A stretch of 37,756 nt of DNA from Desulfurobacteriaceae bacterium. Its GTDB lineage: Bacteria; Aquificota; Aquificia; Desulfurobacteriales; Desulfurobacteriaceae. The number at the start of each line of letters is the position of its first letter. Position 1 is the first letter of the stretch. Shown piece after piece: positions 21,336-33,845 of this stretch. The notes under the pieces were generated by a model, which had not been told where the DNA came from, made no database searches, and saw only the letters and a list, made by a program, of their open reading frames with translations. The stretch is taken from contig JAMORC010000023.1 of assembly GCA_027063785.1 (NCBI GenBank), positions 1 to 37,756 on the forward strand, read 5' to 3'. Made by a program: the position numbers and the translations under genes.

Positions 21336-21703
21336 AAAGAATAATATCGGTTCTCTTTCTAATACTATCGGGCTGTAGTTCCGTCCAGATGAACGGTGAA
21401 ACAAGAATCAGAATTGAAAATATCAGCAGTATCCTAAATAATTGCAGCTCGTTAATCGGAAAAACGGTAACGGTAAAAGCAGAATACAAAGGCTGGGACT
21501 GTCCGTCAGGCTGTAAAAATCCCGGAATAACAAGATCCGACTCCTGTATAGTGGACAAAACCGGTTGCATATACTTAATGGGAACAGGGAAGCTTAACCC
21601 CATAATAGATAAAAACAAAATTTTTCTCTTTAGGGCCGAAGTAGAAACAACGAAAGACGGAACCTGTTACCTAAAGGTAGTCAAGTCTAATGAAGTTAGG
21701 TGA
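21332..21703 (+). CDS. Cys-rich small lipoprotein, OB-fold-like
   Basis: A 123-aa protein with a signal peptide and clear lipobox LSGC (C15), so it is exported and lipid-anchored. The mature part (IGKTVTVKAEYKGW... IYLMG...KIFLFRAEVE) has the alternating strand pattern of an OB fold. It carries six further Cys (C38, C57, C61, C72, C79, C112), probably disulfide- or metal-linked. I do not recognise the family. The GTG start has GGAGG 4 nt upstream and overlaps the peptidase stop by 4 nt, which makes a paired function with the C11 peptidase likely, though unproven. Its end overlaps thiL by 14 nt. Confidence 0.7.
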   Translation: MKRIISVLFLILSGCSSVQMNGETRIRIENISSILNNCSSLIGKTVTVKAEYKGWDCPSGCKNPGITRSDSCIVDKTGCIYLMGTGKLNPIIDKNKIFLFRAEVETTKDGTCYLKVVKSNEVR

Positions 21704-22646
21704 ATTTTCACTCATAGAGATACTGACCAAAAAGCTAAAAACCCTAAAAAAAGAGGTCGTCCTTTCAGTAGGAGATGACACAGCAGTTATAAAGAAAAAT
21801 AGCACTTTTCTCCTGCTGACCGTCGATGCCCTTGTAGAAAACAGCCACTTCCGGCGAGAATGGAAGAAAAAAATTAGAGAGCTTTACTACCTCTTGGGGA
21901 GGAAACTCCTTTCAATCTCACTCAGCGACATTGCTGCGATGGGAGGAGAGGCAAAGTACGCTCTCGTAACCTTGGGAGTTTCTGAAAGCTCCAAATTAGA
22001 AGATTTAGAAGCCTTATATAAAGGCTTATCTGACGCATCTGTGGAATATAACGTTGACGTGGTAGGAGGAGATACCGTCAGATCAAAAGGAGAATTTTTT
22101 GACCTCTTTCTATTAGGAGAAAGCCGGAAATTTATGAGAAGAAGCGAGGCAAAGCCAGGAGAACTCGTAGCTGTAACCGGAACTTTCGGAGACAGCAAAG
22201 CCGGATTAGAGTTAATCGAAAAAGGAAAGGAAATAAAGAGAAATTTTCTTATAAATAGATTTCTCAATCCGACTCCCCGTCTAAAAGAAGGAAAAGAAGC
22301 AGTAAGGATGGGCGTAAAATGCGGAACTGACGTTAGTGACGGGCTTATTTTTAATCTTTATACAATAGCAGAAAGCTCCAAGGTTAGTATATTTATCGAT
22401 TCAGGCAAGATTCCAATGTCGAAAGAACTGTTAAGTTTTTGCAAGGAAAGGAAGAGAAATCCTTTAGAGTACGCCCTATTCGGAGGAGAGGATTACGAAC
22501 TCATAATAACTTTTCCCAACGACATAGAAAAGGAAATCACAGCACTGGGCTTTAAGGTAATAGGAGAAGCAGGTAAAGGATCTGGTGTTTTTCTTGATGG
22601 AAAACTTATTCCTAAAAAAGGATTCGATCACTTCAGGAGGGAATAG
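21690..22646 (+). CDS. thiL: Thiamine-monophosphate kinase
   Basis: Phosphorylates thiamine monophosphate to the active cofactor TPP. The 318-aa protein has the ThiL/PurM fold motifs: GDDTAVI near the N-terminus, a TVDALVENSHF metal-binding segment, LSDIAAMGGEA, VVGGDTVRS, GTDVSDGL and FGGEDYELI. Order and length are typical. The ATG overlaps the preceding lipoprotein gene by 14 nt and no strong ribosome site is visible, so translation is probably coupled. The thiL-uppP junction overlaps by one base. Confidence 0.95.
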   Translation: MKLGEFSLIEILTKKLKTLKKEVVLSVGDDTAVIKKNSTFLLLTVDALVENSHFRREWKKKIRELYYLLGRKLLSISLSDIAAMGGEAKYALVTLGVSESSKLEDLEALYKGLSDASVEYNVDVVGGDTVRSKGEFFDLFLLGESRKFMRRSEAKPGELVAVTGTFGDSKAGLELIEKGKEIKRNFLINRFLNPTPRLKEGKEAVRMGVKCGTDVSDGLIFNLYTIAESSKVSIFIDSGKIPMSKELLSFCKERKRNPLEYALFGGEDYELIITFPNDIEKEITALGFKVIGEAGKGSGVFLDGKLIPKKGFDHFRRE

Positions 22647-30447: not shown

Positions 30448-31095
30448 CTATCCCAACCTGTAACTGAGGTGCCTCTCAAAAACCGTTTTTATTCTATCAA
30501 GCCGTTTTCCTGGATAACTCCCTTTTTGAGAAGAAAAAGGTGCCTTAAGCAACTTCAACGAAAGTCTGGAGTCCCGATAACTCCACGGAAACTCCCCCTC
30601 TCCGCAGCGACTACACAAAACCCCTCCCTTATCCAGCGAAAAACTCTCGATTTCTTTAGAACCGCAAAGAACGCACTTTGAAAGGATTGGGAAAACTCCC
30701 TCAAGGAAAGTAAACTTAAGGAGAAACATAACGTAGGCAAGTTTGAATTCAGAAGTTACGGAAAGGTAATAAGAAAAAAGGTCAAAAACTCTCTGGGACG
30801 GCGCCACCTGATAAGAAGCGAGAAGTTTTGAAATCCTTTCCCTGTAAAAAAACTCCCGGGCAGTTTTCGGAAAGTGGGGTTTAATCAGCTTAGCTTTAAC
30901 AACTTCAAATCTACCGGCTTTTTCCCTCAAGAAAAACTGTGAAAGAGAAAATAGATCAAACTTTAACGGGAAGTCTCCGGCTTTCAGCTTAACAACTGCA
31001 GGTAGCCTTCCGAGCAAGTCCGTATAAAGGGTAAGAGATCTGAGGGAATCCCCCAGATCCTTCGACCTTAAAACAAAGCCCTTTACTTTATACAT
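30448..31095 (-). CDS. recO: DNA repair protein RecO
   Basis: Helps RecR load RecA onto SSB-coated DNA during gap repair. The 215-aa protein has the N-terminal OB fold ([21 protein letters not shown]), a helical middle and the C-terminal zinc module CVLCG...CSRCG. It is slightly short compared with typical RecO (about 240 aa). Its ATG overlaps the ychF stop by 8 nt (ATGTATAA), giving coupled translation. addA follows, so DNA repair functions are grouped. Confidence 0.92.
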
Positions 31096-32191
31096 TGAAC
31101 CTGAAGTAAATTATATCCCCGTCCTGCACAATGTAGTCCTTCCCCTCAAGTCTCATAAGCCCTTTCTCCTTACAGGCTTGGAGAGAACCTTCCCTTAAGA
31201 GATCTTCATATCTAATAACTTCTGCTCTTATGAATCCCCTCTCAATATCGGAGTGGATTTTTCCGGCAGCCTGAGGAGCTTTTGTTCCTTTTCTAACAGT
31301 CCAAGCCTTTACCTCTTGTTCGCCCGCAGTAAAAAAGGTAACAAGGTCAAGAAGTCTATAACCTTCCCTGATCATCACATTAAGACCGGGCTCTTCCAAG
31401 CCGAGCTCTTTAAGAAACTCCTCCCTCTCGTCAGGTTCAAGTTCAGCCAGTTCGGCCTCAACTTTCGCACATATCTTTACAACAGGCGCTCCCTCCCTGT
31501 CGGCCAGCTCCCTAACGGCCGTTACGAGATCGTTATCCTCAAAAAGCCCCTCTTCGTCAACGTTGGCAACGTACATAACGGGCTTCGCCGTAAGGAGAGA
31601 AAGTTCCTTAATAACCCTTCTTGCCTCATCGTCAAGTTCATTCAAGTAAGGATACAGCCTCTCTCCAGCCTCAAGTATTGCCTTTAACTTCTCGAGAGCT
31701 TCGGCCTCCGCTCTTGCTCCCTTATCTCCGCTCTTTGCCTGCTTTGAAACTCTGGAAAGCCTCTTCTCTACGCTCTCAAGGTCTTTGAAAACAAGCTCAA
31801 GGTTTATGGTCTCAATATCCCTGACGGGATCAACACTGCCGTCAACGTGAACGACGTTTTCATCCCTGAAACACCTGACGACGTGGGCAATGGCATCAAC
31901 GCTCCTTATGTTTGCAAGGAACTGGTTACCGAGACCCTCCCCTTTGCTTGCTCCCCTCACAAGACCGGCAATATCAACAAACTCAATGGTCGTTGGAGTC
32001 ACTTTCCTCGGCCTGACAATTTCGGCTATCCTGTAAAGCCTCTCATCCGGAACTTCAACCACGCCGACGTTCGGCTCGATTGTACAGAAGGGATAGTTTG
32101 CGGCCTCGGCTTTTGCAGAGCTTGTAAGAGCGTTAAAGAGAGTAGATTTTCCCACGTTGGGAAGCCCCACTATTCCGCAGTTAAATCCCAT
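31088..32191 (-). CDS. ychF: Redox-regulated ATPase YchF (Obg-related)
   Basis: A ribosome-associated P-loop ATPase of the Obg group. The 367-aa protein starts [17 protein letters not shown], with the G1 loop near the N-terminus, followed by [20 protein letters not shown] and a NVDE motif (the non-canonical G4 of YchF, giving ATP preference). A C-terminal TGS domain is present. The ATG at 32191 has GAGGTGATC upstream. An in-frame TTG further out would add 12 residues not seen in the family, so I do not use it. Confidence 0.96.
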
Positions 32192-32260: not shown

Positions 32261-32325
32261 GGGGACAAAAGGAAGGATTCTTAATAGAATAGCCGGAAGA
32301 AATCCCCCCGAAGGGGGACAAAAGG
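32261..32325. repeat. Short direct repeat pair, 14 bp
   Basis: GGGGACAAAAGGAA occurs at 32261-32274 and again at 32314-32327 between prx and ychF. The second copy forms part of the terminator stem. Two copies this short may be chance or a small local duplication; nothing else in the 138-nt gap looks like a gene. Confidence 0.35.
32303..32318 (-). terminator. Rho-independent terminator-like hairpin after the peroxiredoxin gene
   Basis: Read on the minus strand, TCCCCC-TTCG-GGGGGA forms a 6-bp stem closed by a stable UUCG tetraloop, 12 nt after the peroxiredoxin stop. It is followed by a modest T-rich tail (TTTCTT). It probably ends the prx transcript and insulates ychF. The U-tract is imperfect. 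Confidence 0.62.
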
Positions 32326-32329
32326 AAAC

Positions 32330-32944
32330 TTAGGAAAGGATTTCGTCGATTGAAACGACTTCTCCGACCTTACCCGCAATGTCGGGGCCGGGCTTGAGAG
32401 TCTTCTTCCCGGGTCTCCAGTTTGCCGGGCAGGCTTCATCGGGATGTTCGTAAACGTACTTCCAGGCATCAAGCTGTCTCAGAAGCTCGTTTACGTTCCT
32501 TCCAACCGGCGGTTCAAGAACTTCCTCAGCAACGATGATACCTTCAGGGTTAATGATAAACCTTCCCCTCCTTGCAATCCCCGCATCCTCCATATAGACG
32601 CCGTAAGCCCTGGATACCTCTCCGGTCGGATCTGCCCCCAGAAGGAACTTAACATCTTTCATGAGGGGTTCAACTTCACAGAAAATCTGATGGCTGAATA
32701 CCGTGTCGGTAGAAATCGCAAGGACTTCGGCTCCGCGGGACTTGATCTCATCGTACTTGGCTGCGACCGCAGCCAGCTCAGTAGGTCAGACAAAGGTAAA
32801 GTCCGCAGGGTAGAAGCAGAGAATCAAGAATTTCCCGTCATTGTTCGGCACGTAATCGCTAAGAGAGACATCAACGTACTTCTTATTTACCGGGTCGTAG
32901 GCCTGAACCTTAAACTCCGGTGCTTTTTGACCCACAAGTGCCAT
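32330..32944 (-). CDS. Selenocysteine-containing 2-Cys-type peroxiredoxin (PrxU/AhpC family), Sec at in-frame TGA
   Basis: A 204-codon gene for a thiol peroxidase that reduces hydrogen peroxide or organic peroxides. The frame is continuous except for a TGA at 32786-32788 (codon 53). It lies in FTFV-TGA-PTEL, exactly where AhpC/Prx1 proteins carry the peroxidatic Cys (FTFVCPTEL). The resolving Cys, C172, is present in ACPANW, and the Prx fold motifs (FYPADFTF, GEVSRAYGVY) are intact. A SECIS-like hairpin follows (separate entry). I therefore read residue 53 as selenocysteine, not a nonsense mutation. ATG 32944 has AGGAGG 6 nt upstream. A gene caller would give two fragments. SelA, SelB, SelC and SelD would have to be elsewhere in the genome. 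Confidence 0.9.
32754..32783 (-). promoter_or_regulatory. Bacterial SECIS element in the peroxiredoxin mRNA
   Basis: Minus-strand hairpin GGCTGC-GGTC-GCAGCC (32759-32774), a perfect 6-bp stem, begins exactly 11 nt after the UGA. It has a GGUC apical loop. A lower 4-bp helix (UACU 32780-32783 with AGUA 32754-32757) is possible. Established knowledge: the E. coli fdhF SECIS minimal hairpin also starts 11 nt after its UGA and has an AGGUCU loop whose G-U is contacted by SelB. The hairpin lies within coding sequence (codons for about LAAVAA), as bacterial SECIS elements do. Confidence 0.82.
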
Positions 32945-33029
32945 TTTCTTCCTCCTGAAAAGGTTTTTCAATATTAAAACTTATGATAGACTTTTAATAA
33001 GAATCCTATCCAATCTATAGGTTTTAACT
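32945..33029. promoter_or_regulatory. Divergent promoter region between peroxiredoxin and pseudouridine synthase genes
   Basis: This AT-rich 85-bp region holds the starts for both directions. Minus strand: TTGGAT (33008-33013) with TATCAT (32983-32988) is a weak promoter with a long 19-nt spacer. Two imperfect inverted repeats are visible: CTTAT-N12-ATAAG (32980-33001) and CCTAT-N7-ATAGG (33005-33021). They could be operators for a peroxide or metal regulator, but neither matches a PerR or OxyR site that I can name with confidence. Confidence 0.3.
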
Positions 33030-33845
33030 ATGGAACTTGAGTGTTTTAAACTTGTTCCCTCCGGAAACCTCAAACTTGTTGAAGCGGTATCAGAAACTTT
33101 GGGATCTAAAAACAAAGCAAAAAAACTGATCAACGAAGGACTGGTGGCCGTTAATGGTATTAAAGAACTCCGCTACAGGAGGACGGTCTCCCCGAAGGAT
33201 AGAATTGTTGTCTCTCTTAATCCCTGCCTGTTTGAAAGGAAGCCTCTTAGGCTTCTCTACCTGAAGAAAGGAGTGGCTGTTATCTCAAAACCGCCATTCC
33301 TCAATACCAACCTTAACCCTCCGGATCTTGAAGGATATCTAAGGAAAAGACTCGGTAAAGAATGGCGCGTCGTTCACAGGCTCGACAGGCAGACCTCCGG
33401 GGCAGTAATAGCAGTCAAAGGAGATAGGCTGTTCGAGGCCTTTAAGGAAGAGTTCAAAAAAAGGAGGGTTCGAAAAGTTTACAGGGCCCTGGTTCTGGGC
33501 AGAATAAAAGGAGGAGGCAAAATAACAAAACCGATTGACGGGAAAGAAGCAGTAACGATTTTTAAACCTATAAAAGCATACCGATTCACAACCCTGCTCG
33601 AGGTAGAGATAGAAACCGGCAGAAAGCATCAAATCAGAAAACACATGGCCGATGTCGGTCATCCGATCGTCGGAGAGTTCCTTTACTACAGGAGAAGCTG
33701 GCCGGAAGCTCTCCTCTGTGCCCCGAGGATAATGCTGCACAGCTACATAATTTCCTTCAACCATCCCCAAACAGGAGAAACGGTAAACGTAAAAGCGCCT
33801 CTCCCGGAGGATTTTGAAAAGTTCCTATCTCTCCAGGAAGATTGA
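33030..33845 (+). CDS. RluA/RluD-family pseudouridine synthase
   Basis: Isomerises specific uridines in rRNA or tRNA. The 271-aa protein has an N-terminal S4-like RNA-binding domain ([20 protein letters not shown]), the catalytic HRLDRQTSG motif with the active Asp, then YRALVLG and the [19 protein letters not shown] motif near the C-terminus. RluD is the closest in architecture, but RluA/RluC and TruC relatives share it, so the exact target is unassigned. No strong ribosome site precedes the ATG. Its last 21 nt overlap the convergent rpoD gene. Confidence 0.87.

Follow-up and report, generated by a model that had tools for sequence, protein, structure and literature searches.

A Predicted Selenocysteine-Containing Peroxiredoxin of the Typical 2-Cys Type in Desulfurobacteriaceae, Probably of Separate Origin

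Introduction

Peroxiredoxins with selenocysteine (Sec) at the active site are already known, either as PrxU or as the family "Prx, PF00578, TxxU", which is a recognised selenoprotein family in reviews; in Desulfurobacteriaceae they are apparently undescribed. The founding PrxU is that of Peptoclostridium (Eubacterium) acidaminophilum, according to the citation of Sohling 2001 given in PMC13188914. The bacterial SECIS (bSECIS) model of the same source comprises a loop of 3-9 nt with a G in its first two positions, a stem of 4-16 bp, a distance of 16-37 nt from the UGA and an MFE <= -7.5 (PMC13188914). In a survey of 2006, the Aquificae were credited with only two selenoproteins from two families (PMC1794560). 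In the open-access literature searched, no paper joins selenoproteins with Desulfurobacteriaceae, nor does one join selenoprotein and peroxiredoxin with Desulfurobacterium or Aquificota. A peroxiredoxin of D. thermolithotrophum HR11 (GFV12_RS03815) is 14.2-fold more abundant at low H2 (PMC12724263).

The window analysed here is a stretch of 37,756 nt, the contig JAMORC010000023.1 of a Desulfurobacteriaceae genome (GCA_027063785.1) of 1.57 Mb and 98.9% completeness. The source organism is a heat-loving vent bacterium.

Results and Discussion

The Peroxiredoxin Gene and Its Internal UGA

Translation of the minus strand from 32944 to 32330 gives 204 residues, interrupted by one stop only, the TGA of codon 53. 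This codon takes the place of the Cys in the signature FTFV-x-PTEL and the frame is intact on both of its sides, exactly as the initial annotation had described it (table 1). Under genetic code table 11 without recoding, the gene is divided into an N-terminal ORF of 61 aa (with an upstream TTG start) and a C-terminal ORF of 110 aa, which is the split that had been foreseen for automated annotation.

Table 1. Features of the peroxiredoxin locus within the window
Feature	Position	Strand	Details
Predicted selenoperoxiredoxin gene	32330..32944	-	204 codons including Sec53; TAA stop at 32330-32332
UGA codon 53, predicted Sec at the peroxidatic residue	32786..32788	-	In FTFV-U-PTEL; motif P46-A-D-F-T50-F-V-U53
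Bacterial SECIS hairpin	32758..32775	-	UGGCUGC-GGUC-GCAGCCA; 7 bp; loop 32765-32768, starting 17 nt after the UGA
Resolving Cys172 codon (TGC)	32429..32431	-	In DEACPANW
Cys89 codon	32678..32680	-	From the comparison of peroxiredoxin rows
Shine-Dalgarno AGGAGG	32951..32956	-	6 nt upstream of the ATG
Terminator-like hairpin(s)	32293..32326	-	3' of the peroxiredoxin gene; consensus match only
Presumed RluD-like pseudouridine synthase gene	33030..33845	+	Divergent neighbour of the peroxiredoxin gene
Presumed YchF-like GTPase gene	31088..32191	-	Downstream of the peroxiredoxin gene

The recoded frame scores 121.7 bits against Pfam AhpC-TSA (PF00578, cut-off 26) and 34.5 bits against 1-cysPrx_C (cut-off 21.1), and its best PDB chain matches are 2-Cys Prx/AhpC proteins (E 4e-46), solved structures that settle its fold. 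The residues C172, T50 and R128 of typical 2-Cys peroxiredoxins (AhpC/Prx1) are all conserved; the resolving Cys172, noted earlier as kept, was also found in 19 out of 19 Sec orthologues. With PF00578 above its cut-off and the pattern PxxxTxxU present (P46..T50..U53), the protein falls within the definition of the selenoprotein family "Peroxiredoxin (Prx), TxxU, PF00578". Its Cys residues are at positions 43, 89 and 172. Cys89, in the context HQ-I/L-FC, is found in every Desulfurobacteriales peroxiredoxin of the same type, with Sec or with Cys, and in none of the other rows compared.

Conservation of the UGA Codon

The comparison with close relatives included 22 Desulfurobacteriaceae genomes from seven genera. 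The TGA form (83-100% identity) is present in 19 of them, always at the identical codon position, and the Cys form (about 78-83% identity) in 14, with TGC/TGT at the active-site codon in all cases. In detail, 11 genomes carry both forms, eight the Sec form only and three the Cys form only. Downstream of the UGA, pN/pS is 0.05-0.11, which indicates strong purifying selection. It might be considered that the TGA stems from faulty sequencing or from a nonsense mutation that left a pseudogene or a truncated protein, as the assembly is a draft of 63 contigs and TGA is one base away from TGC/TGT; however, the occurrence of the same TGA in 19 genomes of seven genera, together with the purifying selection past it, rules out an error or a dying gene, and the covariation of the SECIS (see below) also speaks against this explanation, whose probability is negligible.

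Four genomes of other Aquificota (G033, G057, G058, and G117) were rejected as carriers of Sec forms; their TGA/TAA lies near the end of the aligned stretch and the active-site codon is TGT.

The SECIS Hairpin

The SECIS of the peroxiredoxin gene fits the bSECIS model, with a GGUC loop of 4 nt, a stem of 7 bp, a distance of 17 nt and an MFE of -12.8 to -13.6. The 45-nt hairpin is only mildly more stable than its shuffles (z -1.29), and its 23-nt core reaches z -2.56. An Rfam scan of the window returned zero matches, thus the element after codon 53 is not caught by Rfam.

Over the 19 Sec genes, 99.2% of the pair cells of the stem are standard. Pair 15-30 is seen as GU, GC, AU, CG, and UA; pair 18-27 is UA except for one compensated change to CG. 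All of these variants lie at synonymous third positions; as the sequences are related, the shuffle control on this covariation is not to be read as a probability. The third-base entropy of codons 5-7 after the UGA is 0.3 bits in the Sec genes versus 1.1-1.6 in the Cys paralogs, and across 16 Cys paralogs pairing at these hairpin columns amounts to 50.9% and covariation is absent. In one Sec orthologue (L105/L013, genome G013), the loop AGUU replaces GGUC, with the central GU kept and the stem intact. The AGUU loop is common to this orthologue, the PrxU of P. acidaminophilum and the Myxococcota/Poribacteria rows.

Selenocysteine Machinery and a Second UGA-Containing Gene

The four components which had been proposed as a check, that is, selA, selB, selC (tRNA-Sec), and selD, are all present in the source genome, above curated cut-offs. 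The tRNA-Sec (C24:47646-47736) scores 83.4 bits (cut-off 47) and is called as tRNA-SeC with anticodon tca by ARAGORN, whereas the protein genes are located on contigs C48 (selA, 638.6 bits, cut-off 267.9), C35 (selB, 430.6 bits, cut-off 242.25), and C21 (selD, 372 bits, cut-off 125). SelA was found in 21 of the 22 family genomes, and the single genome without it is 62% complete. A genetic code in which TGA is a sense codon throughout the genome, with no Sec signal, would account for the in-frame TGA and for nothing beyond it. Against such a code, five of the 27 window ORFs that reach at least 200 aa terminate with TGA, dedicated tRNA-Sec, selA, selB, and selD are present, and a SECIS lies behind the TGA, so this reading may practically be dismissed.

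The selD of the source genome (C21:16404-17324, L082) is itself a selenoprotein gene by its sequence, with one in-frame TGA in RASG-U-GAKL. Its SECIS (AAGCCC-GGUC-GGGCUU, -20.3 kcal/mol, z -4.3) places the GGUC at exactly the same offset from the UGA as in the peroxiredoxin gene, and the two genes are unrelated. A covariance model trained on the PrxU and selD SECIS sites, which is narrow and biased to such sites, gave two sites only in the whole source genome, the peroxiredoxin and selD (E 1.4e-9 and 2.4e-6). No third site was found by this narrow model, and other selenoproteins may exist in the genome. Across the family, it recovered the PrxU site in 19/19 Sec genomes and in 0/3 Cys-only genomes; the match in G020 sits at the selD UGA. 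Since the model was trained on PrxU/selD sites, its matches indicate consistency and are not an independent discovery.

Two further candidates of the source genome were set aside. Judged by its sequence, a weak SelD-family match in the window (21690-22646, plus strand) seems to be no second selD but a gene of the ThiL type (thiamine-phosphate kinase). The Fdh-alpha-like matches, considered as a Sec-dependent formate dehydrogenase, are without an in-frame stop and none of them is over the family cut-off.

Taken together, the best overall explanation, held with very high confidence from sequence comparison, is that 32330-32944 (minus strand) encodes a typical-2-Cys-type peroxiredoxin of 204 residues with Sec in place of the peroxidatic Cys. 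The machinery, the conservation of the TGA and a covarying SECIS which is missing in the Cys paralogs support the selenoprotein proposed by the initial annotation, and what had been called likely is now near-certain at this level.

Comparison with Known Peroxiredoxins

The closest relative is the Cys paralog, which in the source genome is located at C3:11376-11975 (L002/L114) and shows 78-80% identity to the Sec protein. The two share C43, C89, the resolving Cys, T50, and R128, but the paralog has TGC where the Sec gene has TGA, lacks the SECIS hairpin and continues after the active site with IAAVNAK instead of LAAVAAK. In most genomes, it is found at a different locus from the Sec gene.

The PrxU of P. 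acidaminophilum (NZ_CP007453.1; 46.6% identity) also has Sec (TGA) at the peroxidatic position and a SECIS-like hairpin whose loop likewise begins 17 nt after the UGA. On the contrary, its loop is AGUU and its active site U-ATE, compared with GGUC and U-PTE in the Desulfurobacteriaceae gene, and it has no resolving Cys (Ala in EVAPSGW), which the Desulfurobacteriaceae protein retains. The founding PrxU would thus have to use a resolving partner other than a C-terminal Cys.

Campylobacterota Sec peroxiredoxins from Sulfurovum and Sulfurospirillum MAGs (L044, L047, L049, L050, L054, L055, and L058) have the UGA at the same codon and keep the resolving Cys in six of the seven cases, but they form a separate clade, have a larger hairpin loop (CGUGAAU) and are without C89. 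TGA-form peroxiredoxins are also found in Myxococcota/Poribacteria MAGs (L060, L061, and L063), where Thr occupies the position of the resolving Cys that is Cys in the 19 Desulfurobacteriaceae rows. Bacterial AhpC (TIGR03137) has the whole fold and the motif in common with the selenoperoxiredoxin, with Cys where the latter has Sec.

The window protein scores 231.7 bits against the PrxU model NF040737 of NCBIfam and two of its orthologues 232.6 and 226.4 bits, all below the cut-off of 270, which is passed by L060 and L063 (310 and 367 bits); likewise, it scores 194.6 bits against the AhpC model TIGR03137 (cut-off 272). The Campylobacterota row that was scanned, L044, is also below the PrxU cut-off (216.7 bits). 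The likeness to PrxU suggested by the initial annotation therefore holds for the Sec at the peroxidatic site but does not extend to an ordinary PrxU, given the score below NF040737, the kept resolving Cys and a Sec clade of its own.

Origin of the Sec Form

The protein tree places the 19 Sec rows together in a single group, with the Desulfurobacteriales Cys rows as its sister. As the Sec clade is sister to the Cys paralog of the same family, a separate Cys-to-Sec change is pointed to, and the Desulfurobacteriaceae Sec form probably had an origin separate from that of other Sec peroxiredoxins. An acquisition of the Sec gene from another phylum, e.g., from Campylobacterota or a PrxU holder, and not from the neighbouring Cys form, may be suggested by the Sec peroxiredoxins that exist in MAGs of vent Campylobacterota, Myxococcota, and Poribacteria. 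However, topology tests run with the Sec and the SECIS-coded columns removed rejected a single clade of all Sec rows (delta lnL 94.8, p-AU 0.0013), as well as one clade of the Desulfurobacteriaceae and Campylobacterota Sec rows (p-AU 0.00017). Moreover, the nearest relatives of the Sec clade are the Desulfurobacteriales Cys paralogs, which makes a foreign source very improbable.

The tree implies three Sec/Cys label changes without showing which way they went, and Sec could accordingly be ancestral in the subfamily, with the Cys paralogs as Sec-to-Cys reversions. This is considered unlikely, though less so than foreign acquisition, as the Cys paralogs keep no remnant of the hairpin and most relatives carry Cys. 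In addition, the sister family f2 has Cys copies only, and no match to selB was found there (G135, 95% complete; G134, 64%).

The gene order was also compared. A homologue of the RluD-like gene, which we take from its sequence to be a pseudouridine synthase, adjoins most of the Sec peroxiredoxin genes of the family; the presumed YchF-like GTPase gene, named in the same way, was not found beside the other family Sec genes checked. In genus g7, the RluD-adjacent locus carries Sec only (G021), Cys only (G018 and G020) or both in tandem (G019). In this last genome (C1; L133, 1570-2947), the Sec and the Cys peroxiredoxin genes are in direct tandem with 166 nt between them.

Based on the tree and the synteny, a Cys peroxiredoxin would probably have been duplicated in Desulfurobacteriales and one copy changed from Cys to Sec, with differential loss later; the Cys copy would survive in just over half of the genomes. 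On balance, the reading somewhat favoured is that of an independently evolved selenoperoxiredoxin that stems from a Cys peroxiredoxin duplicated in tandem and uses a Sec53-Cys172 selenenylsulfide cycle, with both copies kept in half the family.

Proposed Mechanism and Significance

From the conserved machinery and the SECIS, it may be proposed that SelB, loaded with the Sec-tRNA(Sec) whose anticodon is UCA, recognises the GGUC loop of the hairpin just 3' of the UGA and would cause the ribosome to insert Sec rather than stop. The resolving Cys is kept in all 19 Sec rows, and therefore a Sec-Cys selenenylsulfide (2-Cys) cycle is expected. By analogy with the AhpC/Prx1 mechanism and from the kept T50, R128, and C172, the attack of Sec53 on the peroxide would yield a selenenic acid, which Cys172 from the partner subunit would convert to a selenenylsulfide; the selenolate would then be regenerated by a reductant of the thioredoxin type.

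The gene would be missed by annotation that stops at the UGA and is also scored under the cut-off by the NCBI PrxU model. The main interest lies in the probably separate origin and in the pair of Sec and Cys paralogs. Having the two, with about 80% identity, in one cell makes the exchange of Cys for Sec and its benefit directly testable, and a genus in which one locus holds Sec only, Cys only or both suits the same test. If the favoured reading is true, the Sec and Cys copies would be a natural matched pair for gauging the contribution of selenium in a hot-vent peroxidase.
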